DNA of 64,000 nucleotides, taken from the NCBI GenBank assembly GCA_947034885.2, contig OX344752.2, positions 16,492,001-16,556,000 of the forward strand, written 5' to 3'. The notes beneath the pieces were generated by a model. The model had not been told where the DNA came from and searched no databases. It was given only the letters and a program-made list of their open reading frames with translations. A program made the translations under genes and the position numbers. Shown one piece after another: positions 1,431 through 24,252 of the stretch. Numbering within the stretch: position 1 is the first letter of the stretch; each line of letters starts with the position of its first letter. Source of the DNA: Thuidium tamariscinum (taxonomy: Eukaryota; Streptophyta; Bryopsida; Hypnales; Thuidiaceae).

Positions 1431-1557
1431 GACTATGGAAGGCCTAAAATACAAAACCATGGGAAATTATTTTTGAGAGATGGTTAAACCTCATAGACTA
1501 ATGAGAAAATTTTGATTGCGAATATGAACTCAGACTTTTAAGTCTTACAAATAAAGA

Positions 1558-2036: not shown

Positions 2037-2159
2037 TGATACAAGGGATTTTTTTAAATGAATTTCTATTGCTTTGTTTGTTTTTTGTTTTTAAAACGAG
2101 TGGCAAACCATTGTATTAAATGAATACTATTTTGTTTTATTTCAATCACATGGAAGGGA

Positions 2160-2625
2160 TTCACTTTTGACCATTTTAACTACAACTCTACAAGGGATTC
2201 TTTTTGAACGAGAACTTAGATCTTCCATTCTCTTGGATTCACGTGAAGGGAATTGTTTTTGTGGATGCTTGTTACAACTAATTCGTGTAGCCTAAGGTAT
2301 GAGCATCATACTCTTGAATTCACTATTCTTATAAGGGGATGCATTTTTGACCATTTTAACTACAAGGGATTCTTTTTGAACGAGAACTTAGATCTTCCAT
2401 TCTCTTGGATTCACGTGAAGGGAATTGTTTTTGTGGATGCTTGTTACAACTAATTCGTGTAGCCTAAGGTATGAGCATCATACTCTTGAATTCACTATTC
2501 TTATAAGGGGATGCATTATTGACCATTTTAACTACAAGGGATTCTTTTTGAACGAGAACTTAGATCTTCCATTCTCTTGGATTCACGTGAAGGGAATTGT
2601 TTTTGTGGATGTTTGTTACAAATAA
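2160..2625 (+). repeat. 172-bp tandem repeat, about 2.7 copies
   Basis: A unit containing GACCATTTTAACTACAAGGG, GATCTTCCATTCTCTTGG and GTTGTTACAACTAATTCGTG-like text recurs at exactly 172 bp (for example the same ATG-led frame at 2253 and 2425). Copies two and three are almost identical. The first copy carries a small insertion (ACTCT) near 2185. More diverged relatives with GGGATTC and TTCACGTGAA words continue to about 3060. The 66-codon frames in it are repeat translations. Confidence 0.9.
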
Positions 2626-3235
2626 TTTTTTTAAAACTTCCAAGTTCAGTTTCTTAGATTCACGTAGAAGGTAGTCATTTCTAAATAAAAGGTACAAGAT
2701 ATTCTTCTTTTCAATGAGAACTTTACATTATTTTGGATTCACATGAAAAGATTCACTTTCTTGAATAATTGATAGAATGCATTTTTTTAAATGAACAAAT
2801 GAGTTTCATTTCTTCAAATCCATTATTCATAAGCAAAGATTCTTTTTTTCTGCATAATAACTACAAGGGTTATTGACTTATTGTGGGGAAATGGAAAATT
2901 ATAAGTTATATTTTGTTCTTAATGTGAAAGGATCCATTTTTATAAATACTTGTTACAATGGATTCTTCCTTAATAAAACGTACAACTTAAATTGAAGTAG
3001 AAAGGTTGTAAATGGAATCCACAATTAGAAATAATTGCTACAATAAAATCTTTTTTACATGAACTTAGAAGACATATTTTTCAGATGCATGACATAGGTT
3101 CTTTTCCGAAGGTTTAGAATACATTGATTTGTTTTTTAATTCAACCCTAAAACCATTTGAAATGAAGTCAAACAATCCAAACTCAAACCCTAAACCCTAC
3201 ACTCCTAAAACCTTTGAACCAAAGAAGCCAAGGAG
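2626..3235. other. AT-rich region, no gene seen
   Basis: This AT-rich sequence holds decayed relatives of the upstream 172-bp repeat (AAGGGATTC, TTCACATGAAA). Near 3180-3210 there are short CCCTAAA-like words (AAACCCTAAACCCTACAC) reminiscent of plant telomere repeat or telo-box sequence. No convincing coding exon. Confidence 0.6.
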
Positions 3236-4745
3236 TTGGAGGGACGCCAGCACAGGGCGCGGACTTCAAGGCGTGGACTCCAGCACAGGGCGCGGATTCC
3301 AGCGCAGGGCGCGGATTCCAGGGCGCGGACTCCTACACAGGGCGGGGACTCCAGGGCGCGGACTCTAGGGTGCGGACCATTCTTGGTGCACAAACGTGCA
3401 TGCAAAGAAGAAGAGGTTGACCTCCCGCATGGGATCCCTCCTTGCTCCTATTTATTGCTCTTGGAAGATGGTGTCCCTCCTTTTCATGGAAACCGGGAAC
3501 CATTAAATTTAGTCATGCCGTCTTCTACATTATGGAGAGACACGAACGCTTTCTCTCACTAATGTTTTCGTTACATTGTCTGTGTCATGGCGCGGACTTG
3601 AAGTCAGGGCGCGGACTCCAGGGCGCGGACTTGAAGTCAGGGCGCGGACGCCAGGGCGCGGACTTGAAGTCAGGGCACAGATACAGCACAAGAGAGGACT
3701 TTGAAATGCGATCGGGCATGAGAACCAGGGAAGCCAAGGAGTCGGAGGCTTGAACTTCACTACATTGGCGCTACTCAAGGCGTGGACGTCAGGTGAGGGC
3801 GCGGACTCCAGGGCGCGGATGCCAGGGCATACAGCACAAGAGAGGACTTTGAAATACGATCGGGCATGAGAACCGGGAAGCCAAGGAGTCGGAGGCTTGC
3901 ATTGGCACTACTCAGGGCGTGGACGTCAGGTGAGGGCGCGGACGCCAGGGCGCGGACTCCTGGACAGGGCGCGGACTCCAGGGCGCGGACGCCAGGGCAT
4001 ACAACACAAGAGAGGACTTTGAAATGCGATCGGGCATGAGAACCGGGAAGCCAAGGAGTTGGAGGCTTGCATTGGCGCTACTCAGGGCGTGGACGTCAAG
4101 TGAGGGCGCGGACGTGAGGGCGCGGACTCCTACACAGGGTGCGGACTCCAGGGCGCGGACGCCAGGGCATACAGCACAAGAGAGGACTTTGAAATGCGAT
4201 CGGGCATGAGAACCGGGAAGCCAAGGAGTTGGAGGCTTGCATTGGCGCTACTCAGGGCGTGGACGTCAGGTGAGGGCGCGGACGTCAGGGCGCAGACTCC
4301 TGCACAGGACGCGGACGCCAGGGCGCGGACTCCTGGGCACGGACCATTCTTGGTGCGCAAACGTGCATGCACTGCAAATGAGGTTGACTTCCCGCATGGG
4401 ATCCCTCCTTGCTCCTATTTATTGATCTTACAAGATTGTGTCCCTCCTTTCATGGAAACCAGGAACCATTAAATTCAGTCATGCCTTCTTTTAGATTCTT
4501 TATAGTGATGGAGAGACAAGAAAGCTTTCTCTCACCAATGTTTTCGTGACATTGGCTATGTCAGGGCGTGGACGTAGGGCGCGGACTTGAGGGCGGACAA
4601 TTCTAATACGTGGCGCGGACTTCATGTCAGGGCGCGGACTTGAAGTCAGGGCGCGGACTCCAGGGCGCGGACTTGATGTCAGGGCGCGGACGCCAGGGCG
4701 CGGACTTGAAGTCAAGGCGCGAACGCCAAGGCATTCAACACAAGA
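3236..4745 (+). repeat. Higher-order GGGCGCGGAC array
   Basis: The core word GGGCGCGGAC, followed by TCCA, GCCA, GTCA or TTGA, recurs dozens of times on the plus strand. It is organised in larger units. A block of about 170 bp containing GACTTTGAAATGCGATCGGG, GGGAAGCCAAGGAGT and TTGGCGCTACTCAGGGCG appears around 3700, 3850, 4020 and 4190. A longer block (3378-3600, with CGGACCATTCTTGGTGC, CGTGCATGCA and GGGATCCCTCCTTGCTCC) is duplicated at about 4342-4565. The same core motif occurs at 9995-10360, 12737-12915 (inverted), 19000-19530 and 21838-22450 (inverted). ORFs here are repeat artefacts. Confidence 0.92.
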
Positions 4746-7609
4746 GAGGACTTTGAAATGCGATTGGGCATGAGATCCTTCAATCTTTCCTTTTCTTGGA
4801 GCGGGGGAACCTTTAATTTTAGGAAGAACAACTTGTTCAACATTCCGACAAGACCATGAAAGCAAGATGCCAAATTGAAGAGCTCAATGGACTAAGGTTT
4901 GGAAGAAACTTCGTGGAAGAGCATGTACCCTTTGTTGTGGTGGAACATGTCGTTCCTTATGTCTTCTAACACTCCGAACTACTTTGAACCTTATTTGTGT
5001 CCCCAAGAAGAAACTAGTACTTTGAACTAAAAAGAATTTTTAGATTTAAAAAAAGAAGTCTAAATTCTTCTATTTAGCAAATGTTCCGGATATTTTGAGG
5101 AAATATTTAGGGAATATAGAGGAAATGTAGTGTACTAGATACAAGGCTAAAACTTAATTTGTTTAAAATGAAAGAAGTAGTAGAGATTTAAACAAAAAAT
5201 TGTAGACCTCCAGTACGCCACTTCAATTTTTCATCTCATCATCCCCTTTCCAATTTTTTATGCATCGAAAGCAAAACTATCTTATCCGAAGTCAATGCCA
5301 TCTTTTTATTTCTTAATTCAATTCCTTGTCCATTTCTTTTGCTTCATTAATTAGCGAAACTCTTATATTTTTGGCCTCTAATGCAAAAATTCTTTTATGC
5401 AAAGTCATTGTCATTCCTTTTTGTTGAATTATTTAGCCCCCTTGTTTTGTGGCATCATTCCTTATGTATTGAATCGTTTTATCTCCTTTTTTTTTACTTC
5501 ATTCCTAAAACTCTTGCATTCAAATTGAATGCCAATTTTTTTTTACGTCATTCGTTTTCCTATTTATTTCCCATTAATTAGCAAAGCTCTCATTCCCCAA
5601 CTGTATGCCATCCTTTTTTTGTTGCATCATTCTATCTTTTTTTGTCACCATTTTCTTTTCAGATTTTCATTTCTATTGGTCTTCATTAATTTCTAGAACT
5701 CTTTTATCGTAATTAGCAATACCAATATTTATTAGTTGAATCATTGCATTGCCTTTCCTAAATGTATTTGGCTTCATTGATTAGCAAAGCTCTTTCATCC
5801 AATGTGAATGGGAATTTCTTTTGTACCACCAGCTAACCAACCTCTTTACTATTTCTTATTATGTTTTTTACTTTATGGTTTAGCAAAACTTGTCCATGTA
5901 ACTCAATACCAATTTTTTTTCGCCCTCATTCTCGTTCCTTATTTTTTAACCCTGAACCAAAATCTTTTCCGTCTTAATAAATTGTAATTTTTTTTCCCGT
6001 CAGTCCCTTTCCTATTTTTTTTATTCATTAGGAAAACTCTTCCATCCCAACTCAATAATAAATGTTTTTTATGGTAAGAAATGGAAGTCTTTCCATTCGC
6101 TTTCCATTTCTCGTTTATTAAAATAGGTAATCAAACACAATGTTTGTTACATATCTCTTTCACATTTGTTTGCTTTTATTAAGAACATCTAAAATGCACT
6201 TTCACTCCAACTAAATGACGTTTTTTTCCCTTACCTAATTTTTTTCATAGATTGGAAATGAATTCCACTCCAATTCAATGACTTTTCATTTCATTCCGTA
6301 CATGTTTTTATAATTGAATCCTATTCCAAGTCAATGACATTTTACTTCATCAATTTCAAGTCAATGAAAATTGATTTTTTCACCACTAAATTTTTTTATA
6401 TTGGGTAACCATTTTTTATTAAATATGTACCTATTTCCATGCCAATTTAATCATCCCTACTTACTTTTCCCATTTTTTTGTACTTTGGGTAACAATACAC
6501 TTCCATTGTAGGTCTGGCAATTACGTGATAGGAAATTGAAGGATGAGTGTTTGGGATTATAGTCAATCACTTTAACTTGTAAGTGAAGTTTAGAATCATT
6601 CCCAAATAAAATTTACGAAAGCTTGGGTCTCTCTACCCCTCTTTTGGGTGCATTTATTTTGAAAGCACTTACATTCCAAGTCAATGCCTTTTCAACTTTT
6701 CTTTTGTTGGATTCCTTTTCTTTCATTTTTTTTGGCTTCATTAGCATAATTGTTCCATCTCAAGTTATGGAAGAAGTAAATGGCACTACTGTTGTCTTCC
6801 TAACTTTTTTCCAACCGAATGCCATTCATTTTTCTTTGATCATTACCTTCCTCATTATTCGAAATTCATTAGCCACATGTTCCATCCCAACATAAGACGA
6901 TTTATTTCCTAAACTCTTTATAGTTTTATTTTATTGATTTGGAAGATTATTTTGTCCCAATTGAATGCCATTTTTTGTGGATATCATTCCCTCCCTAATT
7001 GTTTTTGGCAGCATTTGCAACATTATCCCATGCCATCCCAATGCACTTTATTTATTGTATATCATTCCCCCCTACTTTTTTGGGGCTTGATTAGCGAAAT
7101 TGTTCCATCTCACTAGAATGCCCTCTATTTTTTGGTGGTATCTCAAGTGAATGCCATTTACTTGTTTTCTATCATTAGCAACATTAGAAATGAGTTTTTT
7201 TCCAATATAATGGCATTTGTTGTCCTTCCCTAATTTTATTCATTCATGGAAAATGGAAATGAATTATAGTACAATACTCCAATTCAATGACATTTCATTT
7301 TAGGATATAATTTTTGTATATGTATGATGTTGTTTCAAAAGAGTATGTGCAAAAAAAAAAAAAAAGTCATTTTGGCTTGGATTTTGGGCTAAATAATATA
7401 TATTTCATAAGCGTCATGGAATACATAGTTGGAAAAGTATATGACAAGGTTACTATGACCATGACACCATCTAAAAATGCATGTGCCAATATCTAATATA
7501 ACGAATAATATCTATTGCCGAGATCAAAATTCTATAAGCCTATATTAAGCTAGGACCCTAAGTCTTCTATGAAAACATAAGTTCACTAGCTAGATAGTAG
7601 GAACTTCAC
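4746..7609. other. AT-rich gene-poor region with degenerate repeats
   Basis: Long AT-rich DNA with recurring words such as CATTCCAACTCAATG, GCCATTTTTTT, TCATTAGCAAA and CATTTCATTCC suggests a decayed tandem repeat. An A15 run lies near 7350. Frames of up to 90 codons are low-complexity (F/L/S-rich) and carry no recognisable motif. It also contains the 3' flank of the RING gene, which ends at 7610. Confidence 0.6.
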
Positions 7610-9895
7610 TTAGTCTATGTCCATTGCACTGCCACTTGGGCCAGCCTCGTTGTCATGTGTCCCTGCAATGACGGGAAGGTCTTCGTCCGAGCCTAAACGA
7701 AGTCTACGAACTGCGGATCGAGTTCTCCGCGCTGGTCCATCTTCCTCCAATACAGCCCTCATGATCTGTGATTGTTTGAGGCTCTCAAGACATTGGCGAG
7801 TTCGAGGGCTATGCTGTTCAAGCAAGAAATCCATCCCTTCATGTCGAAAGGTTTCTCGCCACTCTGACTCCTCTAGTTGAACTAGTTCAGCAGGGTTAGG
7901 CATGTCAATGTCGTCCACCATACGAATCCCATCGTCGTTAGTGATACGAACTCCATCCCTATTCCAAAACCACTGTTTAGGATGAGGTCCAAATTGAAAG
8001 TTCTCAAAAACCTCGTCCCAATGCCCATTGAAGCACTGATAGAAGAAATTCCGTCGTCCTTGGCTATACTTGTCCTTCATTGGAATCAAGTGTTGACACA
8101 CCTCCACTATTTGAGCTGGATTTTTTTCCCAACCCCATTCGGCAGAAAGGTTTTGTTTATCCAAGGAATGGAGCTTCAATTTCCAACTCCACACCAAGTC
8201 AGTTCCCCACTTCTGAGCATGATCAGGGGCATTTTCAGCATTATATTCCCAATGTGGTGGCATGTATGAAAGTAATCCAAATAAATCATACAATTGCTCA
8301 TGGAAAGGAGCCTTGCACAAGGAACACCGTCGACGAACAACCATCAAGCTAATCAAACAAAATGGATGGTACAAGTGTTCGCACGTGCCTAGGTGCATTC
8401 CACCTTCAGGGCCAAATGGATTTAGACAAATGGGACACGTAGTACCATCATACACGAAGCTTGAAGGATTTGGCCACAATAATAGTGGATTGCCGTTCTG
8501 GTCGAGGGAAGAGCCAACTTCATTCTTGAAATCCCAATGGTGTTTGGACCAATCGATGATTGTTGTTCCACCACCAATGTCTTTGGTCACCATTTCATCC
8601 ATGTTGAAATGATCATCCACAAGGGCCCACGATGTCAACCCAAAAACCCTCTCTTGATTGTGTGCGCCATAATTGTTGTCGATTTTTTGGAATTCTAACG
8701 CCATTTGCTGAGTCCTGTCAACTGAAAAGACGCATGCCATCTTCCACTGGTAATATTGCTCCATCAACGCTTTCAATTGCTCTTTCAATATCAAATTGTT
8801 TGCAAGTGCGTCCGTCAATTGAGTGCTCTGGTCAATTGGCATTGCTTGACCTGCATTTGTGGGTAATTCTCCAAATGACAGTGCATCATCTTGAGTACCC
8901 TGTGTTGCACCAACTTCAACATGTTGCACTGGAATTTCATCATGGATTGGAGGCCCTTCCGCTCCCCCTCGTGGATCCTGACCATCATTGGCCAATGTGG
9001 CTGCTTCAAGAGCATGCTGCAGCGCCTCTATCTGACGTTGTTGTTCACTTATAATATTGTTCTTCTCTTTGAGTTCATCCCTCAATTTAGCAACATCTTC
9101 ATACAAAGAATGCAGATGCACATTGCTCTCTTCCACTTCAATCCTCAAACTCTGAATTCGATCTGCAGCTGCTGTAACATCAACAATTCCTATTGTTGGT
9201 TCGTCAGTAGCTGGCACCTGTCCCTCCACAACATTTTCTTGTACACCCTCTTGAGTTGCACGCTCAGCCCTCCTCTTTTTAAGCCGTAGATTTGTTCTAT
9301 AGCTGAGTGCATGTGGCACATGAGATCCATCCGAGTCGTTATCTGTAGCAGAGTCCTCAGTGTCATGTAGTGGTGGTGCTTCAACTTGTGTCATTGTTTT
9401 ACCCAGTCCACCTTGCGGGTACCTTTTTACCCCCCTTGGAATGAATCCATTTGCTGGTGTTGGAATGTTGACTTTCTCCCCCATTGTCTTCAAAGTTGAC
9501 CAGTCCATTCTCTTGTTCAACTTCAATTCCGCATGTACCCCTCGTGCAATGAAGAGATGCACTTCATTGCGTTTGACAATAGGGACATCATACAACGCCT
9601 GGTACACTTCGATGCACCGATTTGTGAACTCCTCATCAATGCAATGTTTTAAATTTGCCTTGTGGAAGCGTCGGTGATAGTTGTGTCGCTCTTCTGGGAA
9701 GACCTTGTCAATGTGGCACCACTCGATGTAATTGGCACAGGTTTCGTAAGTCCATGGGTCAGGCACGTCTTCCCACCCTTTGAATGCAAGCTTTGCGGGA
9801 TTACGTAAAACATGCAACCGCTTACGATGTTTGTTTCCTCCTCGTAGTCGGGTCTTATCTCGTTCCTCCTTCCTTGGTCTTGTCGGTGTAGCCAT
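7610..9895 (-). CDS. RING-H2 zinc-finger protein with coiled coil, possible E3 ubiquitin ligase
   Basis: An intronless 761-codon frame, started at the ATG at 9895 (MATPTRPRKEERDK) rather than at an in-frame TTG upstream. The N-terminal part is basic (RLRGGNKHRKR). A predicted coiled coil spans roughly residues 240-300. A RING-H2-like finger spans about residues 487-530 and shows CPIC, GTCEH, YHPFC and CSLC, which fits the order C-x2-C...C-x-H-x2-H-x2-C...C-x2-C. RING fingers of this type usually recruit ubiquitin-conjugating enzymes, so an E3 ligase role is inferred. About 200 residues follow the finger and contain aromatic WEY/WSWKL/WEK segments I do not recognise. It is head to head with the kinase gene at 10517 and shares its intergenic array. 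The frame is intact and ends in TAA. A transposon-borne or multicopy gene is possible. Confidence 0.8.
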   Translation of the reverse strand: MATPTRPRKEERDKTRLRGGNKHRKRLHVLRNPAKLAFKGWEDVPDPWTYETCANYIEWCHIDKVFPEERHNYHRRFHKANLKHCIDEEFTNRCIEVYQALYDVPIVKRNEVHLFIARGVHAELKLNKRMDWSTLKTMGEKVNIPTPANGFIPRGVKRYPQGGLGKTMTQVEAPPLHDTEDSATDNDSDGSHVPHALSYRTNLRLKKRRAERATQEGVQENVVEGQVPATDEPTIGIVDVTAAADRIQSLRIEVEESNVHLHSLYEDVAKLRDELKEKNNIISEQQRQIEALQHALEAATLANDGQDPRGGAEGPPIHDEIPVQHVEVGATQGTQDDALSFGELPTNAGQAMPIDQSTQLTDALANNLILKEQLKALMEQYYQWKMACVFSVDRTQQMALEFQKIDNNYGAHNQERVFGLTSWALVDDHFNMDEMVTKDIGGGTTIIDWSKHHWDFKNEVGSSLDQNGNPLLLWPNPSSFVYDGTTCPICLNPFGPEGGMHLGTCEHLYHPFCLISLMVVRRRCSLCKAPFHEQLYDLFGLLSYMPPHWEYNAENAPDHAQKWGTDLVWSWKLKLHSLDKQNLSAEWGWEKNPAQIVEVCQHLIPMKDKYSQGRRNFFYQCFNGHWDEVFENFQFGPHPKQWFWNRDGVRITNDDGIRMVDDIDMPNPAELVQLEESEWRETFRHEGMDFLLEQHSPRTRQCLESLKQSQIMRAVLEEDGPARRTRSAVRRLRLGSDEDLPVIAGTHDNEAGPSGSAMDID

Positions 9896-10516
9896 TTTCA
9901 CGGGAAAATGTGAAAACCTCCCACGTGGCAATCAAGAAGACCCTGCACGACGCTCACAACTAACTCAATGAAGAAGTGGAAGGCTTGAGAGTATGCAGGG
10001 CGGGGACAAGTGAGGCGGGGACGGGTTTATATAGGGGCAGGCGGGGGACGTCAGGGCGCGGACGCCATCGCTGTCAGGGCGCGGACGCCTCCGTCAGGGT
10101 GGGGACTCCTTCGTTGTCGGGGCGCGGACGCCTCCGTCAGGGCGGGGACTCCTTCGTTGTCGGGGCGCGGACGCCTTCGTCAGGGCGGGGACTCCTTCGT
10201 TGTCAGGGCGCGGACGTCTCCGTCAGGGCGGGGACGCGTGTGTCAGGGCGGGGACTCCACGTGTTGGGGCGGGAACGCGATGGGGATGGGGCGGGGACGT
10301 GCGGGGGGGGGACTATATAAAGCGAGTCCCCGCCCTCATTCCTTTGCCAAGTCCGCGCCCTATGCCTCACATGCTAGTTCGTTCCCACGGCCTATGCGAG
10401 TGAGTTTGGTGGGTGCTGGGCTTGGCCTGCATATGTGACCCGGTTTTTTTGAATTTTTTGAAACTTTCTTGCTTCGGGATTGATACGGAGGCCTATTGGA
10501 ACTTTTTTTTTCCATT
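9896..10516. promoter_or_regulatory. Bidirectional promoter region with GGGCGSGGAC array
   Basis: This 621-bp divergent intergenic region separates the RING gene (-) and the kinase gene (+). A TATA box faces each gene: CCTATATAAA on the minus strand (10035-10026, about 130 bp before the RING ATG) and TATATAAA on the plus strand (10314-10321, about 195 bp before the kinase ATG). Between them lie about 280 bp of units GGGCGCGGACG and GGGCGGGGACTCC spaced by CTTCGTTGTC or CTCCGTCA. Just past each TATA box, inside each presumed leader, the motif reads as GTCCCCGCC in the sense direction (10326 for the kinase; 9998-10023 for RING). The mirror symmetry suggests one shared regulatory block driving both genes. 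Confidence 0.75.
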
Positions 10517-12097
10517 ATGGCAGGTGAAGGGAGTGGATCAGTGGACAAACGTCCTATGTTTGTAGACTTGGATGATATCGGTGAGACGGTAATTCCATGT
10601 ACAAACACGTTGATGGCCTCAGGTTCATCAAATCCTTCCTCATCAGGCCAGAAAAAACGCAAGAAAGAACAAAATCCCCAAATACCTGGACATGAATTCA
10701 TAGTCGAGGGGAGAAAAATAGCTGTGGTGTTCTACACTCGTCGAAGTACAAATATGTTGAACAGGGAGTATGTGTCGCTCAACGAAGAAGGGTACCACAA
10801 ACTGACGAGGGACCTGCGAAGGGAGCTGGAGTCAAAGTTTGAAGAATCAGAAGAATTCAACAACTTCTCAGATTATTGGTTGCACCAAGAGTGGCTGGAT
10901 AAACAAGTGGTCGCCTTGACAACCAATATAGTGTGTAATTGGTGTTATCACACGGGTAAGAAAGAAGATGGTAGCGACTGGGACACGGAGGACAGAGAGA
11001 TGGTTACAAAAGTGAAGGAGATTCAAACGTTTGCTCAACGATATTCTTCTTCACGTAGAAAAAAGCAAGCACCATGGAAAGTGACAATTGAAGAAGCGAT
11101 AACGGCTCATTGCGTGAGTGGAACATTCAAGTGGCTAGGAAGTTCCGTGAAAGTCATCCCCATGCCGGAACAAATTGCGATTGGGTCGTATGGGACCGTG
11201 AGGAAGGTGATCTTTACGAAACTTGAGAGCATTCCTAGTTGGATATTTTTTGCTGGGAAGAGCTTGAAGACTAAGAATGAAAAGAAGAAACGCCAAGCAA
11301 TCATCAATGAGGCAGGAGGGTGTCCAGTGAATCATCCTGGCATCATTCGAATTGCGTACCTCCACCCTAAAACAATGGAAGGCTACACACTATGGTGGAA
11401 TGGAGGATCTCTAATTTCTTTCTTGTCCAAATGCAATGCGAAAGTGAGCGAAGCACTGGATTTGAATGAGATTGAGAATGACATTTCTACGGGGCTAACG
11501 AAAGAGGAACTTTCATGGGTTGCAACGTATCGGAGAAATCGAGTGAAATTGGCATTGTCATTACTTGTCACTGTGGGGAAATGCCATGATGCGCAGTACA
11601 TGCACAACGACATATCTCCATCCAATGTTTTGCTCCATTTTGATCCTTGGGAACGAAATAGGGTGTACATAGGGATATGTGATTGGGGACTTTCTAGCCG
11701 AGTTGTGGAGAAGGAACCATCAAGGTATGGCTATCCCAGTATGGAGATCCTTGCGAAGGAGAAAAAAAAGCGAAGGTTTACAGCCCCAGAATTGTTTTAT
11801 GTATACGGAGAGCAGGGTTCATCAAACTCCATTGAGGCCATGCAAAAAACGCATTTGTATTCTATGGCAGCTGATGCATATGCAGTGGGATGGATAGCTT
11901 CTACAATTTGGAAAGAAGAGTGGGACCCTAAATACTTCACAACGAAAAACCCAGAGCAGTATCAGAATTTCATGATCAAATTGGGAAGCCTCGTAAAAGA
12001 AGATGTGCGTGAAAGGGCAACAGTGCCAGATGTTCTAGAGAAATTGAAGAAGGCCCCCCACTGTTGGACGATGCCGGATTGTTGTTATCGTACATAG
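10517..12097 (+). CDS. Divergent protein kinase-domain protein
   Basis: An intronless frame of 526 residues from the ATG at 10517 (MAGEGSGSVDKRP); an upstream in-frame TTG is not preferred. Kinase landmarks appear in order: glycine loop IGSYGTV (about residues 222-228), lysine in FFAGKSLK (about 248), catalytic loop HNDISPSN with Asp 365 and Asn 370, metal-binding DWG in place of DFG (389-391), and APE-like TAPELF (423-425). The key D, N, D and K residues are present, so activity is plausible. The first ~190 residues hold a Ser/Lys-rich linker (SSGQKKRKKEQ, possible nuclear signal) and an unrecognised region. The substrate is unknown. It is head to head with the RING gene, and the pair could be a kinase-ubiquitylation module, though that is inference. 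It ends in TAG, followed by an AT-rich 3' flank. Confidence 0.82.
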   Translation: MAGEGSGSVDKRPMFVDLDDIGETVIPCTNTLMASGSSNPSSSGQKKRKKEQNPQIPGHEFIVEGRKIAVVFYTRRSTNMLNREYVSLNEEGYHKLTRDLRRELESKFEESEEFNNFSDYWLHQEWLDKQVVALTTNIVCNWCYHTGKKEDGSDWDTEDREMVTKVKEIQTFAQRYSSSRRKKQAPWKVTIEEAITAHCVSGTFKWLGSSVKVIPMPEQIAIGSYGTVRKVIFTKLESIPSWIFFAGKSLKTKNEKKKRQAIINEAGGCPVNHPGIIRIAYLHPKTMEGYTLWWNGGSLISFLSKCNAKVSEALDLNEIENDISTGLTKEELSWVATYRRNRVKLALSLLVTVGKCHDAQYMHNDISPSNVLLHFDPWERNRVYIGICDWGLSSRVVEKEPSRYGYPSMEILAKEKKKRRFTAPELFYVYGEQGSSNSIEAMQKTHLYSMAADAYAVGWIASTIWKEEWDPKYFTTKNPEQYQNFMIKLGSLVKEDVRERATVPDVLEKLKKAPHCWTMPDCCYRT

Positions 12098-12424
12098 TAT
12101 TTTGTTTTTAATATTTTTTGTAGTTTAGCATATATTTCAGGCATAGAAGAAAATCATCCTCGTAGAGGAGCCTATGTACCTACTTGGCAATTGCCAAACA
12201 GCTTGAATATATATTAAATCGGATGTGTAATTGTGTACCATACTCAAAATCCCAAAATATATTAATATGCCCTTTCATTGGTCTTTCCTCATGGCATTTT
12301 TTATGACTTCTATGAATTGATGATAAAACGTAAATGAAAACTATGGATGCAATAGTTTGGTATAAAAATGCATACACTTAATTTTTTCCACTATGCCTAT
12401 GTTTTAGGAGTCACATATGCAGAA
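12098..12424. other. AT-rich 3' flank of the kinase gene
   Basis: AT-rich DNA downstream of the kinase stop, with no coding signal. It probably holds the transcript's 3' untranslated region and polyadenylation area (AATATATATTAAAT near 12210). Confidence 0.4.
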
Positions 12425-12640
12425 GTGATTTGGATATGGAAATGGTTTGCATGTTATAGTGAGGTAATTTAACACCTCCTAAAAATATAAAATGGTGTAG
12501 TGATTTGGATATGAAAATGGTTTGGATGTTAGAATGATGTAATTTCACACCTAAAAAAAATGGAATGGTGGAGTAATTTGGATATGAAAATGGTTTGGGT
12601 ATTAGACTAATTAGAGTGATATGATGTAACATTAAGAAAA
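12425..12640 (+). repeat. ~74-bp tandem repeat, three copies
   Basis: The phrase GTGATTTGGATATGAAAATGG recurs at about 12425, 12500 and 12573. Each copy is followed by a variable AT-rich tail with TAATTTCACACCT-type text. No gene. Confidence 0.8.
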
Positions 12641-12736
12641 ATATAAAGTGTTGGAGTGACTAGGAAAGTGGGAATATGGAATATAAAAAGGAAATATGTA
12701 GAAGCATATTAATTAATTTTAAGGTGGTCCCAAATC

Positions 12737-13064
12737 CTGTCCGCGCCCTGACGATCGCGTCCGCGCCTTAACGATCCCGTCCGCGCCCTGACGACCGCGT
12801 CCCCGCCCTGACGATCCCGTCCGCGCCCTGACGACCGCGTCCCCGCCCTGACGATCCCGTCTGCGCCCTGACGATCCCGTCCCCGCCCTGACGATCCCGT
12901 TCGTGCCCTGCATGTTCGGGAATCCACATGGCAACCACGTGGCCTATTTTTCCATTATCAAAAAGTCAACTATGTGTTGACTCTACCGGACGGGTGAGAG
13001 CTCTATCAGACGTCCCGGACGGACGGACGGGCGAACCGGACGTCCGCTTGGTATGACAACCCTG
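12737..13064 (-). mobile_element. hAT-like element right end with inverted GGGCGSGGAC array
   Basis: GTCCGCGCCCTGACGATC and GTCCCCGCCCTGACGATC units (about 18 bp, ten copies) form the reverse complement of the array motif at 3236 and 9995. A segment with GTCAACTATGTGTTGACTC, GACGTCCCGGACGGACGG and CCGGACGTCCG follows. The unit ends in GGTATGACAACCCTG at 13064. The last ~95 bp closely match, in inverted orientation, the left terminus of the element at 18828. The flank ACCTGAAG follows. No matching CAGGG left end was found upstream. Confidence 0.7.
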
Positions 13065-13922
13065 ACCTGAAGGCATTCACTGTCTACGTCATTTCGTGGC
13101 TGCTCCTTGTCTTGGTATAATCATCCACTTCAAGTCCTTCTGTGTTACCGGAAATTCAGCATTGCAAGATGCTTCATCGAAGTCCAACTCAGTAGCTAGT
13201 CACTTTTGTTCATTTTTGTTTGTGCAAGCCATATTAAACGATTGAGGGGGTAATTCTATGACCTTGAACTTCTCCAACACTCAATGCAAGCCATTTTCAA
13301 TTAGTCAGTACAAGTGTATTACGTCATGATTTGTATCATAGGGACACAAAGTTAATCCCACATAGGTGAAATTCAACAAAAAAGCATTCCATAAATGAAG
13401 GCAGCATTCATAGTACAAGTACACGCCGGAGAGGTAACACATCACGACATCGTTCAAATTTATGGCTGAAGGGTAGCAGCCCAAAAAAAATGGGAATGAA
13501 ATGAAAATCAAGAAGGGGTACCAGCCCAAAAAAATGGGAATGAAATGATTGTGCAAGAAGGGGTAGCAGCCCAAAAAAAATGGGAATGAAATGAAAATCA
13601 AGAATGAATACCAGTCCAAAAAAAATGGGAATGAAATGAAAATGAAGAATGAATACCAGCCCAAAAAAAATGGGAATGAAATGAAAATGAAGAATGAATA
13701 CCAGCCCAAAAAAAATGGGAATGAAATGAAAATGAAGAATGAATACCAGCCCAAAAAAATGGGAATGGGAATGAAATGAAAATCAAGAAGGGGTACAAGC
13801 CCAAAAAAAATTTGGAATGAAATTAATGATTGCGAAAAAACCTTGTCCTACAGGAGGGCAGAAGACCTACTATTACACTTCAGTCATATGTAAGTAAGGA
13901 AGGAAGATTTACAGGCTAGATG
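13065..13922 (+). repeat. ~45-bp tandem repeat (13465-13812) and flanks
   Basis: Units of the form AGCCCAAAAAAAATGGGAATG followed by AAATGAAAATCAAGAAGGGGTACC repeat about eight times at 44-48 bp spacing, ending near 13812. The frames through it (FISFPFFLGWYSF or its reverse) are repeat translations. The DNA before it (13065-13464) shows no gene. Confidence 0.85.
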
Positions 13923-15576: not shown

Positions 15577-18500
15577 TTGCCACCACGAAGTCATTCTGAA
15601 GTCCCAAACCCTAGCCATTCTCTCGATTCCTCCCAAGTGTTTTGCGCGCCTTTGCAAGTAAATTTGTCGCCATTTGCGCTTGCATTGTTCTGGGAAGTTC
15701 AAAGTACTAGTGATAAGAGGGCCGACGACATTGTATGTTGGCGGCGCAGGGAGAGAGAAGTCGCTGCGTCCAAACCAGAACGAGGTGGTGGCTTGGAGAA
15801 GAAGTCCACTTCCCCTCGGCGCGGGACTGAAATCCGGCGGGGCCTTCGAGGACGGGTGGAGCGCGAGACGGAAACCCCAAATCAGGCGAGTGATTCTGAC
15901 CCCGATTTCATTCCGATGAGTAGTGAACGTGATTCTTCGTCAGAGGCCACTAAGTCCAATGACGAGGCCATCGCCACAGGTATGATGCATTTAGCTATTG
16001 CTTGTACCCATTTCACGCGGCAATCCGAGAAGGAGCCTTGCGCCGCAGGTAAAATCACTTCTCGCGTTTTGGCTGACGGCTTTGCTCTAGGGTTCAAGGG
16101 TTTAAGGCTTCTAAAATGCAGACATAGGTTTTCCTTCAATTGCTTTTGTAAACCGTGGCAGTATTGCTACAAAATAGAACCCACCTTCTTTATCATGCGA
16201 GCAAGGATGAGAGTCTTTGAATTCATGGCAAATTTCCTCGCCACTTCAATTGGTACCCTTGCCGTTCTTGTGCAGCACCGGATACCTTCAAGGTAGATTC
16301 TTTGGAAGAAGAATTCGAGCTCTCGGAGGAAGAACCCCTGCTTGATCGAAGACCGAAGAAGAAGAGGACCGTCACTCCCAGCGTCGTGGCGCCGCCCCCA
16401 TCTAAAAAGGTTTTGAAGGCAGCACCGCCAGCGCCGCCTCCTACAGCGCCCACAAGCGAGCAGGCACCACCAAATTGGGCATGGGTTCCAGGGCATTACA
16501 TGCCTAGCCAAGCCCCTTCCTCAAATCCATGGGCTGTGACACCACAAGCACTCCCGTCTGCATGGCCTGGTCAATCTACAGCAATGGTGGTGACAGACGG
16601 AGCTCTTGTGGCAGATGACAGTGAGGAGCGTGGCTGTCGTCGAAAGCGCAAGATGGAGTACGACTTGGGGAGCAGGCAGCGAGCCGTGGCGGGAGGTAAG
16701 CCGAATCGTGTTTTTGTCCTCCCAGGTGGTGAAGTGGACGCTTCTTGTGAGGGCAAAAATGCTTGGGATGAGGCCCTACGTGATCTCATCCCCAAGTGCC
16801 TGGATATGAGTGTGGTCGCGTGGTCTAAGCATGAACCACACACGCTGAAGAAATTGCGGGCCGCCTTAGACAACGAATTTGAGTACCTTGGTACTCCGCT
16901 TAGTATGGTCGGCTTTCGACTGGCTGTTACCAAGTGCATGAAGTCCGAGCACTCCAGGTTGAAGAATCGATGGTTGAAGGGCATTGAGACTTGTCCCCTT
17001 CACATTGACGATGAAGAGTAGGAGCGGCTGAAGGATTACTGGAATACAGATGCTCAGAAAGTCAAGTCGCACAAGATGGCCATTGCTCGTCGGAGTGTCA
17101 AGAATAACACGATGGTAGGAAGGAGAGGCAAGGCTGGGAAAGAATTCAGTATGGTAAGCCTGAACTGAACTCACTTTTAGGTTCTTCCATGGTAGTGTCA
17201 TATTCTATGTGTGAAGATGTGTAGCTCCCTTGTTTTGGCACACATTGGTAATTGATTCATTCATGTGGCTTGTTGCATAGAGAGAAGACGGGTACAGGAA
17301 TGCTCCCACGACAGATGTAGCCGATGGTACAGTGTTGCATGCACGGGCAGGAGCTTCCATGCAGGTAAGTTCTAATCTCGCAATTGCAAAGTCCTTTTCT
17401 ACATTAGCAATAGCGTTTGGGTCCTGAAAATGCGTTAGTGGTCCTGTACAATAGCGCCTCTGTTCATGAGTGGTTCGTGCTTGTGGTGTGGTACAAACAT
17501 CTAGGGTGGATAGCAATTGCGAATTCGGATCAGTAGTGGTTGTTGAGCCTTACGGTGGTGAAATGTAAGTTGCAACCGCATTCTGTGACATATTCAGAAT
17601 ACCTAAATGACTTCTTTGTAACTAAGTAATGACTAATAAGAGATTGTGGAATGACTTAATCCTAACTACTGAACGACTCCTCAGTCACTATGGAATGACT
17701 TTTCTCCAACTTCTTAATGACTCAGTCGTGAGTACTGAATAACGTTTTCGTAACTCCTCCTCGACTAATTTATAACACGTGAATGACCTCTTCGAATGTC
17801 ATGTTCTCGAGTGTGACCAGGTGGTAGGGGAAGGGGATTCGGGTCGTTGGGAATCCCTTGAAACGTGGAAGAAGGGTGTGGACGAGTCGCTCGGTCAATT
17901 CCTTGCTAATTCAACCGTGCAGACGGCAGCCATTGATGAGATACGCACCATGTTCCAAAGTTTCATGCGCGGGGCTAAGGAGGTGGACGTGCCAACTGCC
18001 TCAAATACAGAGTCTGCCTTGGACAACCCCGGATCTGGCGGCTTACACATTCCGGTAGCGAATGCCATGAAGTCAGACTCAAGGGTGAAGGTTGTGACCC
18101 TTGACACAGGGAAACGGAAAGGGGGGGCCCGCTCTACAAAAGAAAAAAATCAGCCATGTGTTGCAGCAGGGAAGAAGCACAAGGGGCGGATCACAGCGAA
18201 GGCCGCCGACATTACCCTCTCCGATTCGGACACCGATGTCCCACCTCACACTGAAGACGTCCAGCCGAAGCCTCCGGTGATGCAATCCAAGATAGTGGAG
18301 GAAGGCACCCCGGAGCCCAGCCTGGAGTTACCAAAGTCCAAGACTGCTCCCCAGGTTGGAGCGAATATTTCTCCTGAGGGGGGTTTGCCACCCGAAAGTG
18401 ATCGTTCCGCTCTGCAGGGAAGCGAGGCCGTAGCACAGGTGGAATCACCCGCTAAGAAGGCTCCTTCACTACCTCCGAAGGTAATGACAGAGGAAGACGC

Positions 18501-19007
18501 AACAGGGGTTCTCGATTTGGATCCCTACATCGACCCCCAACCGCTGAATGATACTTCTTCAGAGGATGATGGAATGCGTACACCAGACAGTGGCGGCCCG
18601 TCTCCTGCTAATAGCGACGCGGAAGGACGTCGCGTGCTCCCGCAAGCTGGAGAGCGGGAACTTGTTGTGGCGAGAGAAGAACAGCCAGATGCCACAGAGG
18701 CTGAGCGTGAGGAGGTGGAGGCAGATCCTGAGGAGTTGAAGTTGGATGAAGTACCTGAGAAGGTGGCCTCGCCCTCACAGAAGAAGTCCCGCAAAGCCAC
18801 AAAGTCACTGCAAAAGGTACCTAAACCCAGGGTTGTCATACCGGGCGGACGTCCGATTCGCCCGTCCGTCCGTCCGGGACGTCCGATAGACCTCTCGCCC
18901 GTCCGATAGGGTCAACACATAGTTGACTTTTTTAAAAGGTAATAAAAAATCCACGTGGATTTAAATTCATGCCACCTAGACACCACAGGCGCGGACACAA
19001 CTAAACA

Positions 19008-20078
19008 AGGCGGGGACGTGAGACAGGGCGGGGACGTGAAAAATGACAGGGCGCGGACGTCAACTTCTTTCTGCTTTTGCAATTGGAGTTTTGAGAATTT
19101 GGAGGCATGCAATATACCATTGGAAAGGTATTCAAAATACCTTTCCAATGGTATATTACACGCCTCTAAATTCTCAAAACTCCAATTACAAATTGGAAAA
19201 CAAATCTACTACTAAAATCCACTATGCAGAGAGTCCATGAGCAGGCGCGGACGCAAGGCCGGGCGGGGACGCAAACACGGGCGCGGACGCTAGGGCGCAG
19301 ACGTCAACTTTCTTCTGCTTTTGCGATTGGAGTTTTGGGAATCTGGGGGCGTGTAATATACCATTGGAAAGATATTTTGAATACCTTTCCAATGGTATAT
19401 TACACGCCCCCAGATTCTCAAAACTCCAATCGCAAATTGAAAAACAAATCTGCTGCCAACATCCAAGGCGTGGACGCGAGGCAGGGCGGGGACGTCAGGG
19501 CGCGGACGCGAGGCAGGGCGGGACCACAAACTGCGTGGGTGTTTTCAAATGGCCTTGGCCTTGGGATTCCTCTTCTTCACTAAACCCGCCCCCCCAAAAG
19601 GCCACATTAATTACTGTCAACTCATTTGTGCACGGTTGACTAGATCTCCAAGTACATGGAGGTCAAATGGACACATTAAGAACTCCACCTACCAACTACA
19701 ACTTGCACAAGGGTGGAGGCCTTTGAGAGCTAAGTGCATTTCTCTCTTGTGGCCTAATTCCTCAAATCTTCTTTCTCACAAGACCATGGATTCTTCATTC
19801 TTGAATTGAATCTTTGGGAACTTGGAGGGTAAAATAGTTCTTTTGTTTGTATTTGTTTTCCTCAATTTGATTCTTGAAGGCTTTGGATGGGGTTATTAGA
19901 AGGTGATGTAGCCCTTGCTATTTATTTATACCAAAGCTTGGATATGTAGGTTATTTTTTGACTTTCTCTTATAGTAGTTTTACTTAATTATTTATTGTGT
20001 AAATTCTAAAGAAGGGATTTAGTGAAGGGCGCGTCTTTTTCTATTGCTTTTTTAAGTAATTTGAATGAATGGTTTTTT
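19008..20078 (+). repeat. Left arm of the foldback element
   Basis: This arm pairs with 21286-22352 in inverted orientation, with only scattered differences. It includes GGGCGGGGAC/GGGCGCGGAC units, the palindromes 19081-19187 and 19321-19435, and a unique-looking portion with CAAATGGCCTTGGCCTTGGG, ending at AATGAATGGTTTTTTT. The long arms would let the DNA or a read-through RNA form a kilobase hairpin. Confidence 0.9.
19081..19187. repeat. 107-bp palindrome
   Basis: An almost perfect inverted repeat running from AATTGGAGTTTTGAGAATTT through ATACCATTGGAAAGGTATT to CTCAAAACTCCAATT, centred near 19134. The sister palindrome at 19321-19435 (TTGCGATTGG...CCAATCGCAA) is a diverged copy with a GGGGGCGTG block. 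Confidence 0.9.
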
Positions 20079-21285
20079 TTAAAGTGTCCCTTTAAAAGTT
20101 TTGGTATTGAGTTGAAAATTGAAGTAGCAAGGTGCTTGGATAGAAACAAGACATAGAAAGGTAGGCCCCAAAATTAAGAATGCGTGCCTTTTCCAATCCT
20201 TTTAAAGATTGAGGTAGGCGAATTATTTAATATGGCCATTTCAGCATCATGGACTTCTAGATTTGGTCTCTAGTACAAATATTACCTCGCAACATGAAAG
20301 TAATTTTTTGATTTTAGGGAGAAGAAGAATCTCATTGCCCCAAGTCCATTGAAAAGGATTGTGAAGGTTTCTTCTATACTTTTATCCATTAATGCTGAAG
20401 CTTATACCTAGGTTTGCTTGATTCAAGTTATTGTTTGAATAGAAAAGAAGGAACAAGACGAGAGGCACTTGAATTATTTTATTTAATGGATTGAATTCAT
20501 TTAAATTTTTCTTTGAATGGAAAGAAAGATTATATGTTGCCTAAGTTTGGTTCAACATCTAATTGTGAATATAAAAAGGATGAAACTAAAGAGGAGGCAT
20601 TTTAATCATTTAAATTTATTTCTTTGTATCATAGAAATCAATGTTATTTCATATTCTAGATAACTATACAATTAATTGTGTCAATAGGATAAATGAAAAA
20701 TATTAGTTTTACCTAATTTTTATCTTTCTTCTTGCAATTGGGAGAAAGGTTGTCTTTTATTCAAGCTAAACTCAACTCTCAATAGAATTTTATTGAAAAG
20801 AAAGAAAAGAGCTATTGAATTTAAGTTAAGAGTATCTAAGACTTTCCTTTGAAAATTTGGAAAAAAAATTATATCCATTGTGACCTTCAAGGATTGAGAT
20901 AATAAAATGGTGTGATTAATCCTTCATTCAATCATTAAAAAATTAAATTCTAAATTCCCTTCAACAATATAAATGCTACATGGAAAGAAAAATGGGGAGA
21001 GAGTGCCCTTGGTCCCCATTGTATCATTTTTTAAGACATTCATCCAAAAACACAAAAATTCCTCAAGAACTAAAAACTCTACTTCAAGATTTTAAGAAAT
21101 ACAACAAAGTCACCTCCTCCTCTCTTCCAAATCCCTCCTTCATGCATTCAATAACTAAATGAACAATCCCTAGGGGAACTCAATTGTACACCGCCCTAAA
21201 ATAAATGAAGAACAAGGGCCTCCACTATTATTAATTAATTCTTCACACTTTCTAAAGTAAAATAAAGAAATGGTAAGGGAAAAAA
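20079..21285. other. Loop of the foldback element
   Basis: AT-rich spacer between the inverted arms. The longest frame is 60 codons (20980), with no recognisable motif. I see no gene here. Confidence 0.6.
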
Positions 21286-22352
21286 AACCATTCATTCAAA
21301 TTACTTAAAAAAGCAATGGAAAAAGACGCGCCCTTCACTAAATCCCTTCTTTAGAATTTACACAATAAATAATTAAGTAAAACTACTATAAGAGAAAGTC
21401 AAAAAATAACCTACATATCCAAGCTTTGGTATAAATAAATAGCAAGGGCTACATCACCCTCTAATAACCCCATCCAAAGCCTTCAAGAATCAAATTGAGG
21501 AAAACAAATACAAACAAAAGAACTATTTTACCCTCCAAGTTCCCAAAGATTCAATTCAAGAATGAAGAATCCATGGTCTTGTGAGAAAGAAGATTTGAGG
21601 AATTAGGCCACAAGAAAGAGAAATGCACTTAGCTCTCAAAGGCCTCCACCCTTGTGCAAGTTGTAGTTGGTAGGTGGAGTTCTTAATGTGTCCATTTGAC
21701 CTCCATGTACTTGGAGATCTAGTCAACCGTGCACAAATGAGTTGACAGTAATTAATGTGGCCTTTTGGGGGGGCGGGTTTAGTGAAGAAGAGGAATCCCA
21801 AGGCCAAGGCCATTTGAAAACACCCACGCAGTTTGTGGTCCCGCCCTGCCTCGCATCCACGCCCTGACGTCCCCGCCCTGCCTCGCGTCCACGCCTTGGA
21901 TGTTGGCAGCAGATTTGTTTTTCAATTTGCGATTGGAGTTTTGAGAATCTGGGGGCGTGTAATATACCATTGGAAAGGTATTCAAAATATCTTTCCAATG
22001 GTATATTACACGCCCCCAGATTCCCAAAACTCCAATCGCAAAAGCAGAAGAAAGTTGACGTCTGCGCCCTAGCGTCCGCGCCCGTGTTTGCGTCCCCGCC
22101 CGGCCTTGCGTCCGCGCCTGCTCATGGACTCTCTGCATAGTGGATTTTAGTAGTAGATTTGTTTTCCAATTTGTAATTGGAGTTTTGAGAATTTAGAGGC
22201 GTGTAATATACCATTGGAAAGGTATTTTGAATACCTTTCCAATGGTATATTGCATGCCTCCAAATTCTCAAAACTCCAATTGCAAAAGCAGAAAGAAGTT
22301 GACGTCCGCGCCCTGTCATTTTTCACGTCCTCGCCCTGTCTCACGTCCCCGC
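21286..22352 (-). repeat. Right arm of the foldback element
   Basis: The inverted copy of 19008-20078, containing GTCCGCGCCC/GTCCCCGCCC units and the mirror palindromes near 21930-22040 and 22170-22280. Outside the arm (22353-22591) is an extra stretch with GTCCACGCC, GTCCGCGCCC and CCGTCCGGTCC units, not matched by the left side except at the terminus. Confidence 0.9.
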
Positions 22353-22599
22353 CCTGAAGTTGACGTTGAAGTCCACGCCCTTCCTATACGCGTCCACGCC
22401 TTGACACTGTTACGGTGAAGTCCGCGCCCTGACAGAGACGTCCGCGCCGTGGATCTCGTTTTCGAAGCTGACGTGTCAACCCAAAAAAATCCCACTACTT
22501 TGAAAAATGGAGCCGTCCGGTCCGTCCGGTCCGCCTCGCCCGTCCGTCCGGGACGTCCGGTGACCCTGACTCGTCCGTTATGACAACCCTGCCTAAACC

Positions 22600-23339
22600 G
22601 CCCGACGTTCTCCAATGCACGTCGAGAGAGGTGAGACCTTCCGGTGACTCTTGGTTTACGGGTGGATTACAAGACTTTGGTCCTAAGAAAGTAGTTGTCT
22701 TTAATCTGCATGGTATACTATTAGACTGTAATATGCTATCCTCACCAAACCCAAACCCTCGAATCCGCACTAGCAGTAAAACTGCATGTAGGCAAATTGT
22801 ATTTCGGCCGTGGCTCAAGAAGTTTCTTTGCCATTGTTTTCAGTCATTTCATGTGGGTTTTTGGAGTAGCGGCAGTGCCTCCCACCTGAATGACATCTTG
22901 TTGGTGGTCTTAGGAGGGCTGAAGGGAATACAGGCACTCCCATTGTTCTCATGGTGTGGTCAACAGAGAGAGGTCACAAATTTGGGGGAAGGGTGCCCTA
23001 GTTCATATGATAAGTAATTAGAGTTTGTGTATGCTTCATGGCCTCGTTTCTGTACAGCCAATACCGTGATTGTAGACAGTAAGCCAAGTAGGGTTCAATG
23101 CAATCCTGAAGCTAATGTCATTATTAGTACTCCTTTCTACGTGAAGTGGATGTGCACATTGGCAAATGACAAGGAGTATTTGAAAAGATTCCTGTGGCCG
23201 ATGTTGGAGGCTTTACAGTCATGCCCAGACGTGGCTACTTTCCGGTCCAAATTCCCTGAAGTTGTCAACGAATCAATGTCTGAAATGATACAAAGACGCC
23301 GCAGCGAACACACATATGAGTTCTTGGACATTGTGGAAG
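22600..23339 (+). pseudogene. FCP1/SCP-type HAD phosphatase-like domain in CACTA protein
   Basis: This continuation of the interrupted CACTA exon reads KKVVVFNLHGILLD, then FRPWLKKFLCHCFQSFHVGF and WSSGS. After a TAA at 23015-23017 it stays open with FCTANTVIVDSKPSRVQCNP and VIISTPF. The order (VVFDLNG-type motif I, RPxxxxFL, WSS motif II, then a NTxIVD..P.....NP segment) is that of FCP1/NLI-interacting-factor HAD phosphatases. Motif I has Asn where the nucleophile Asp belongs, so catalysis is doubtful. The domain sits between an acidic linker and a TNP1-like exon, so it appears to be part of the transposon protein, not a free host phosphatase. Confidence 0.65.
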
Positions 23340-24252
23340 GTGAGGGGGCTGACATACCACGTTATTGCACAAGTAACGGTGTCCCCTCACCTTCCCTTGC
23401 TCTTCATTTCTGATAATCATTGTATTTGTGTGTAGGGCAAGGTGCAAAGGCGGGAGCTAAGGACGAAGACAGCACCCACGGCAGAGAAAAAGGCTTCCGT
23501 ACCATCCACGAAGAAGGTACAGAGAGTAGTACATCGTGACTACCCTTGCATCTCTTGATGTTGCTATATAGAATTGTTAAATATGCAGGGAAGTAAACAG
23601 GCAGTGGGAGCGGCACAATGACTGTGTTAGTCATTCATTAGTGATGTACTTGTCTTAGATGAGTCATTCCCCAGTTTCCATGAGTCGACTGAATGGGCTT
23701 GAACCCATTTTACAGGACCGTTGACCGTCTATGACAGTGGTCTGCCGTGAGTGGAAGCAGAAGTAGAAATGTTGCATCATATTCCAGAATTAGAAGACTT
23801 CTTGCATGAGTGTTTGCTATGGACATATGGGCTACAACCCGAATCCACATGATAGTTTCTCTGAAGGGCGGAATGCGGTAGAGACCTTCTTGAATTTGAG
23901 TATCGGACAAAATCCGGCCGAAGTGGGATAGGAAATTCACAGGGTTGTTCATATTTGTTTTAGTGCACCCTACTTCACTGTAATTCGTACTAGCATAGCA
24001 CTTTCTAAGCCTGCAAAAACCACCGCATAGTCATGACTTAGAAATAATAGGTTCCCAAGTGACAAGAGAGTGACTCTGTAGTAACATAGAAGTCATTGTT
24101 GAGTCAAAAGTCATAAAGAAGTGAAAGGTAAGTGACATTCCAATAATGTTAAAGTAGAGGTGAAGCGCACAATGTTAAGTTCTCTGCATGCATGAGCTCC
24201 AACAGAGATGTTCCAATGTAATTTGTTGTAATAATGTCTTCATTGTGCGCAG

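Follow-up and report, generated by a model that had tools for sequence, protein, structure and literature searches.

The foldback element

The DNA analysed here (the window) is a stretch of 64,000 nucleotides from Thuidium tamariscinum (assembly GCA_947034885.2, contig OX344752.2, positions 16,492,001 to 16,556,000). Positions 18828-22591 hold a foldback hAT element of 3,764 bp, flanked by CCTAAACC on both sides, which interrupts a gene linked to CACTA transposons. The window opens with the right part of a giant hAT element, itself harbouring a diverged relative (Table 1).

Table 1. Features of the window (window position = position in the giant minus 21,473)
Feature	Position	Strand	Basis or remark
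Giant hAT element A, right part	1..13064	.	whole element 34,537 bp, C4:16470528-16505064; includes part of the nested element
Family B hAT element, right end	1..2038	.	diverged, 17,098 bp, nested in giant A
Family B duplication ATACAAGG	2039-2046	.	flank of the nested element
RING-like/coiled-coil gene of the giant, RING1	7613..9931	-	RING match just under the Pfam cut-off
Protein-kinase-like gene of the giant, KIN1	10484..12097	+	PF00069 match that exceeds the Pfam cut-off (E 9e-11)
Subterminal array of GTCCGCGCCCTGACG-type repeats	12734..12910	.	near the giant's right end
Right target duplication of giant A, ACCTGAAG	13065..13072	.	left copy outside the window
Host CACTA-linked gene, upstream open frame	17776..18827	+	open reading frame, genome matches
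Target duplication CCTAAACC, left copy	18820..18827	.	single copy in two empty sites
Foldback hAT element	18828..22591	+	C-type end left, A-type end right
Left terminal repeat CAGGGTTGTCATA	18828..18840	+	C-type end (next base C)
Left end segment, 178 bp	18828..19005	+	outer 131 bp 88% identical to the giant's end, 12935-13064
Left arm, kilobase inverted repeat	19006..20080	+	99.3% vs right arm
Palindrome 1	19076..19192	+	inverted-repeat scan, folding
Palindrome 2	19320..19436	+	inverted-repeat scan, folding
A+T-rich centre, 1.2 kb	20081..21279	+	both orientations among copies
Right arm, inverted repeat	21280..22356	-	99.3% vs left arm
Palindrome 3	21926..22042	+	inverted-repeat scan
Palindrome 4	22170..22286	+	inverted-repeat scan
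Right end segment, 238 bp	22354..22591	-	resembles the other end of the giants
Right terminal repeat CAGGGTTGTCATA	22579..22591	-	A-type end (next base A)
Target duplication CCTAAACC, right copy	22592..22599	.	flank comparison
Host gene downstream, first part of FCP1/NIF-like phosphatase domain PF03031	22592..23014	+	24.8 bits, cut-off 21.8
Host gene, last part of PF03031, weak	23018..23410	+	E 0.002, below cut-off

The termini and the 8-bp duplication are as an earlier note on this sequence had described them, with CAGGGTTGTCATA at both ends and CCTAAACC beyond. That note had also pictured the element as almost entirely two 1.07-kb inverted arms with four embedded palindromes; the arms and palindromes are there, but their share was overstated, since the arms make up approximately 57% of the element, the remainder being the centre (G+C content 31%) and the two unlike end segments. 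Alignment of the arms, which the note had proposed as a check, covered 1,077 bp. Each arm contains a pair of palindromes, each with arms of 57 nt and a loop of 3 nt, and predicted folding gave -95.2 kcal/mol (z = -19.7) for one of the four and -76.7 kcal/mol (z = -18.1) for the second one tested. Long inverted arms, internal repeats and little coding capacity place the element in the foldback structural group, and it encodes no transposase of its own.

Empty sites and copies in the genome

If the element inserted into CCTAAACC, intact sites should carry that sequence once and other copies with the same ends should exist, as the earlier note had reasoned. Both were found. The joined flanks with one target copy (488 nt) have unbroken genome matches at C9:14771601-14772088 (99%) and C7:24071921-24072408 (98%), and the 46-bp junction at each of these element-free sites holds a single CCTAAACC and differs from the join at one base. 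Both sites belong to further copies of the host gene, and neither is an allele of the window site. The 13-bp end CAGGGTTGTCATA has 107+117 matches (224) in the 363-Mb genome, against 1+1 for the reversed control, and so is not there by chance. In 82 instances the next base is C (control 0) and in 142 it is another base (control 2), the first 100 of the latter being listed.

Neighbouring ends were paired by eye from listings of limited length, and 46 pairs of at least 3 kb were tabulated, a non-exhaustive set that omits, among others, two pairings spanning 94 and 137 kb. The tabulated pairs comprise 11 at 3.7-4.0 kb, one at 5.6 kb, 7 at 6.8-7.05 kb, 3 at 8.0-8.1 kb, 4 at 9.9-10.03 kb, one at 11.0 kb and 19 at 17-55 kb. 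Fully read copies number 8/11, 4/7, 2/3 and 1/4 in the 3.7-4.0, 6.8-7.05, 8.0-8.1 and 9.9-10.03-kb classes, respectively, with the others assigned by length alone. Perfect 8-bp duplications flank 30 of the 35 pairs checked, which came as sets of 18 (16 perfect), 7 (5 perfect) and 10 (9 perfect). One mismatch is present in three pairs (one from each set) and two mismatches in one (from the set of 18), and the remaining pair, in the set of 7, has no match.

Two arrangements of ends stand apart. Same-orientation ends lie 266-277 bp from one another, like tandem short elements, at C1:11840039/11840316, C3:14328151/14328428 and C5:4728081/4728347. In addition, C6:25135725-25570157 contains three end pairs (7.05 and 9.9 kb) in which both ends are of C type, most pairs having C/A polarity.

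Giant relatives and classification

The ends of the foldback also bound giant elements of 17-55 kb. Those of giant A are the foldback's two unlike ends (88% identity over 131 bp and 85% over approximately 250 bp), and the right end segment, extended by a few bases, is 85-88% identical over approximately 250 bp to the other end of both the 17.0-kb giant and the window's own. Seven giants were read, of 17.0, 19.3, 20.6, 23.8, 23.8, 34.5 and 55.0 kb, and much of their extra length consists of inserts. Close to one end of three of them, g24a (C1:9822276), g55 (C1:34244427) and g19 (C2:36232243), lies another element, whose ends read CAGTGAGAATTTTTT or similar; it measures 1.3 or 5.1 kb and has the palindromic 8-bp flank CGAATTCG.

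hAT terminal repeats are short and start with CAGGG or TAGGG. Here, CAGGGTTGTCATA stands at both ends, the target duplication is 8 bp, and the presumed autonomous relatives encode a dimerisation domain. The transposase of the window's giant (family A) lies in two frames with one stop between them and matches DUF659 (E 1.4e-36) and Dimer_Tnp_hAT (E 3.2e-9). We therefore assign the foldback to hAT, in agreement with the earlier note, because it shares its ends and 8-bp duplications with these transposase-bearing giants. An 8-bp duplication alone would not separate hAT from KDZ/Zisupton or P, but that the foldback belongs to either of those superfamilies is extremely improbable given the domains matched by the transposase frames, one of which also matches Hermes; Pfam scans of these frames gave no match to the KDZ transposase PF18758. 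The transposase frame of giant A contains a TAG; the idea that this is a conserved recoding site was rejected, as CAG stands there in the six other giants read.

The element nested in giant A represents a second family, B, with a related gene trio: its transposase is approximately 42-50%, its RING-like protein 29% and its kinase-like protein 30% identical to the giant A set. The family B transposase matches DUF659 (3.2e-36) and Dimer_Tnp_hAT (7.5e-10), its C-terminus is the part that resembles Hermes (E 2e-4), and the kinase frame holds stops. Family B ends likewise begin CAGGGTTG, and one may ask whether this or some other transposase, rather than that of family A, moved the foldback. We consider this quite improbable, as the foldback ends resemble those of family A across 131 and approximately 250 bp, whereas the match with family B extends for 8 to 10 bp.

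Inside the elements, GGGCGNGGACG recurs. It occurs 11 times in the foldback and 0 times in the 47,163 bp of the window outside elements, with 12-31 occurrences in thirteen relatives (3.8-8.1 kb) and 15-38 in eight longer elements. By analogy with Ac and Galileo, these repeats are candidate transposase-binding sites.

Three genes carried by the giants

Transposase, RING-like and kinase-like sequence, often broken, is present in 7/7 giants read, with protein identity of 92-100% among the main pieces. The exceptions are minor: in g24a the last short pieces of the kinase, past frame changes, are 72-75% identical, and in g21 the RING gene is split by an insert. The RING-like protein has 773 residues, and its RING match scores 25.0 bits (cut-off 27.3). 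The kinase-like protein (537 residues) matches PF00069 at 42.1 bits (cut-off 31.7) and has what we take to be the glycine loop, the lysine and the HND-N and DWG motifs of a kinase. A sequence search of the PDB with the kinase gave no match, and single-sequence structure prediction was uninformative (mean predicted local distance difference test score, pLDDT, 33.5).

A genome search with the kinase returned 83 matches, of which 47 loci (62-100% identity) were kept once 12 second pieces of a locus, two fragments (68-73%) and 22 matches of 32-33% identity had been set aside. A C-type end lies at most 8 kb downstream, in the right orientation, at 32/47 loci, each with a distinct end (chance 0.0009 per locus), and so the kinase is a standing part of the giant elements. 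The 22 copies at 32-33% identity form a third kinase family, 1,581-1,584 bp in length (e.g. C7:26628977-26630557), and in 14/22 a single TGA is the sole in-frame stop.

Are these genes of any use to the element? The ratio of nonsynonymous to synonymous substitution rates (dN/dS) averaged 0.64 for the transposase, 0.53 for the RING-like gene and 0.64 for the kinase-like gene (21 pairs each, stop codons skipped). The weak constraint on the latter two, together with the stops in several copies, would suit captured passengers with no role in the element's life. This is possible, but we think it somewhat unlikely: both genes are in every giant read, they are no less constrained than the transposase, and a related trio recurs at 29-50% identity in family B.

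Homogenised arms and centres in two orientations

The arms within a foldback copy are homogenised. Across the inner 540 bp of the arms in 14 copies, we counted 13 within-copy differences, compared with a mean of 184 under random pairing (0/20,000 as low), and 11 compared with 55 when the diverged copy L023 was set aside (0/20,000 as low). Copies with three arms were entered by their outer pair, and L019, in which the outer arm is partial, was excluded. The arms of L023 differ from each other at 2/539 sites and from any other copy's arms at 67 or more, and no alignment column separates left arms from right arms. Minor variants stand on both arms of a copy in 26 cases.

When the ends are aligned, which are always C/A in the eight copies scored for orientation, the centre reads in the + orientation in three copies (that of the window, L013 and L018) and in the - orientation in five (L012 and L014-L017). 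The seven other 3.8-4.0-kb copies have a centre that matches that of the window copy at 96.0-99.5% identity, and arm pieces among the eight such copies read are 90-99% identical. Exchange between the arms explains both the homogenisation and the two orientations of the centre. Near-identity of the arms over the inner 540 bp would also be expected if each palindrome had arisen anew through aberrant transposition or replication rather than by mutual conversion. This seems improbable to us, since all eight of these copies share the arm sequence, the centre and the junction joining them, and the centre lies in both orientations between polar ends, which arm recombination explains directly. In the 10.0-kb copy a unit with a period of 3.06 kb stands twice, the two being 99.9% alike, and this accounts for the ladder of 3.9, 6.9 and 10.0 kb.

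Proposed origin and known systems

The foldback is likeliest to be a Ds2-like, non-autonomous hAT element mobilised by the three-gene giant hAT family. From the 17-kb-class hAT elements it would retain only the two differing end regions, of roughly 131 and 250 bp, around an interior of unrelated filler shaped as a kilobase foldback. The giant's transposase presumably binds these ends and the GGGCGNGGACG motifs, and would cut and paste the element into 8-bp targets. Within each copy the arms would pair and recombine, so that they stay alike and the centre flips, and duplication of the 3.06-kb arm-and-centre unit would give rise to the longer forms. In the parents, the transposase gene would be regularly accompanied by the RING-like and kinase-like genes. 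The foldback would have landed recently, its target being the NIF-phosphatase-like gene carried by a CACTA element, and the same CACTA element probably took up the 34.5-kb giant. Taken as a whole (non-autonomous hAT foldback, giant three-gene parents, arm recombination and CACTA host), we hold this explanation with considerable confidence. A more far-reaching version can be offered only tentatively: that the genome harbours a separate lineage of giant hAT transposons (17 kb and more) with several genes, whose RING-like and kinase-like products control the transposase or counteract host silencing. A foldback parasite, with arms held alike and a centre inverted by exchange between those arms, would then live off this lineage.

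Several observations weigh against the explanation we favour. None of the seven giants read has all three frames open, constraint on the three genes appears about equal and weak, and g24a is the giant whose flanks show no matching duplication. The RING matches (25.0 and 27.2 bits) both fall slightly below the Pfam cut-off of 27.3, and the family B kinase has a sub-threshold Pfam match only, its identification resting on the 30% identity to KIN1. At 15/47 kinase loci there is no exact end nearby. The arm test is weaker for the eight short (3.8-4.0-kb) copies alone (10 differences compared with 25.6; 19/20,000 as low), and 13 minor variants stand on one arm only. The motif GGGCGNGGACG occurs once in the most diverged foldback, L023, and 0 times in two miniature inverted-repeat transposable elements (MITEs); the pattern was picked after the elements had been seen, and the counts are uncorrected for base composition.

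hAT elements are usually small and carry a single gene. The departure from the cases consulted would lie in a giant hAT parent, two standing accessory genes and two diverged families. A close parallel is Ds2 of the maize Ac/Ds system, a class of non-autonomous hAT elements with 8-bp duplications that keep approximately 200 bp of each parental end, with subterminal repeats and often unrelated internal filler (PMC3260210). Parental ends, subterminal repeats and unrelated filler are likewise seen in the foldback. The differences are that here the filler forms a kilobase foldback, whose centre can face either way and whose units make up a ladder, and that the parents measure 17 kb or more and have two further genes, whereas Ac measures 4.6 kb (PMC3260210). 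Galileo shares the long, internally repetitive inverted arms, and its arms hold repeated transposase-binding sites; it belongs to the P superfamily, however, whereas the present element is a hAT, and the binding-site role of the motif in its arms is putative (PMC3688188, in the portion seen).

With regard to cargo, ToxhAT of fungal wheat pathogens (approximately 14 kb) is likewise a large transposon named as a hAT with a cargo gene, but the sections of the reports available to us name a single cargo gene and mention no kinase-RING set (PMC12506042, PMC11857905). Fungal IS3EU transposons carry alpha-kinase and TET/JBP genes, and hAT7 carries TET/JBP genes (PMC12730594). These are similarly DNA transposons with accessory enzyme genes in conserved order, a kinase among them; they differ in being fungal and in having the alpha-kinase in IS3EU and not in hAT, and the excerpt seen mentions no RING gene (PMC12730594). 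Arabidopsis VANDAL elements, with the anti-silencing VANC, are also plant transposons with an extra gene for their upkeep, according to the parts consulted (PMC10398659, PMC5735166). VANDAL differs in being Mutator-like. VANC, moreover, is neither a kinase nor a RING protein. In the open-licence literature, a scope that Repbase lies outside, we found neither a hAT foldback nor a hAT element with kinase and RING genes.

If this is borne out, a hAT element of at least 17 kb with a kinase/RING/transposase trio in two lineages would widen the range of cut-and-paste cargo, and the trio may exemplify signalling or ubiquitin machinery encoded by a transposon. The homogenised arms and flipped centres would be products, open to counting, of recombination within palindromes of kilobase size, and the foldback, lying in a CACTA gene, could naturally give rise to long hairpin RNA.

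The host gene and its CACTA context

Once the flanks are joined, one frame is open from 17776 to 23014 with a stop at 23015, and the reading frame thus continues across the join, as the earlier note had it. The downstream part matches PF03031 at E 2e-5, and one same-frame stop precedes the weaker match that follows (a possible intron). A PDB sequence search with the NIF fragment gave no match.

The host-gene flanks have 40 genome matches, which amount to 39 loci once the window copy, matched in two halves, is counted a single time. With 150 of 627 candidates scored, a match to the TNP2-type CACTA transposase PF02992 lies 6.3-11.8 kb upstream at no fewer than 13/39 loci, divergent in all 13 (chance 0.6% each), with 0 on the other side of the gene among the matches scored at the 39 loci. 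These data support the claim that the element sits in a CACTA gene. The empty-site copy on C9 has its PF02992 match at 7.7 kb, and that on C7 has none among the matches listed. An insertion outside any CACTA gene was considered, as the frames of the window contain no CACTA transposase by Pfam, and was rejected since matches were found beyond the window.

For the window copy, the PF02992 match lies outside the window at C4:16469110-16469748, 0.8 kb beyond the left end of the giant, its distance of 6.3 kb being that with the giant removed. The giant, the nested giant and the foldback therefore probably share one CACTA element. If this match belongs to the host CACTA element, its left end is outside the window; the best CACTA-type terminus pair within the window (13923/32052) matches at 12/13 positions and has no 3-bp duplication. 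A 73% relative of the host gene at C3:5985995-5986386, with a CACTA transposase match adjoining, lies inside a hAT end pair (C3:5945152-5995834, 50.7 kb), and from this case hAT and CACTA elements may also nest the other way round.

Two repeat features were also noted in the window. Near the host gene, at 24821-25240, a G+C-rich unit of 21 bp is repeated in two arrays that face each other, and a 237-bp tandem repeat with a strong palindrome around GGTACCACGAGGCCCGCG lies at 40131-40570.

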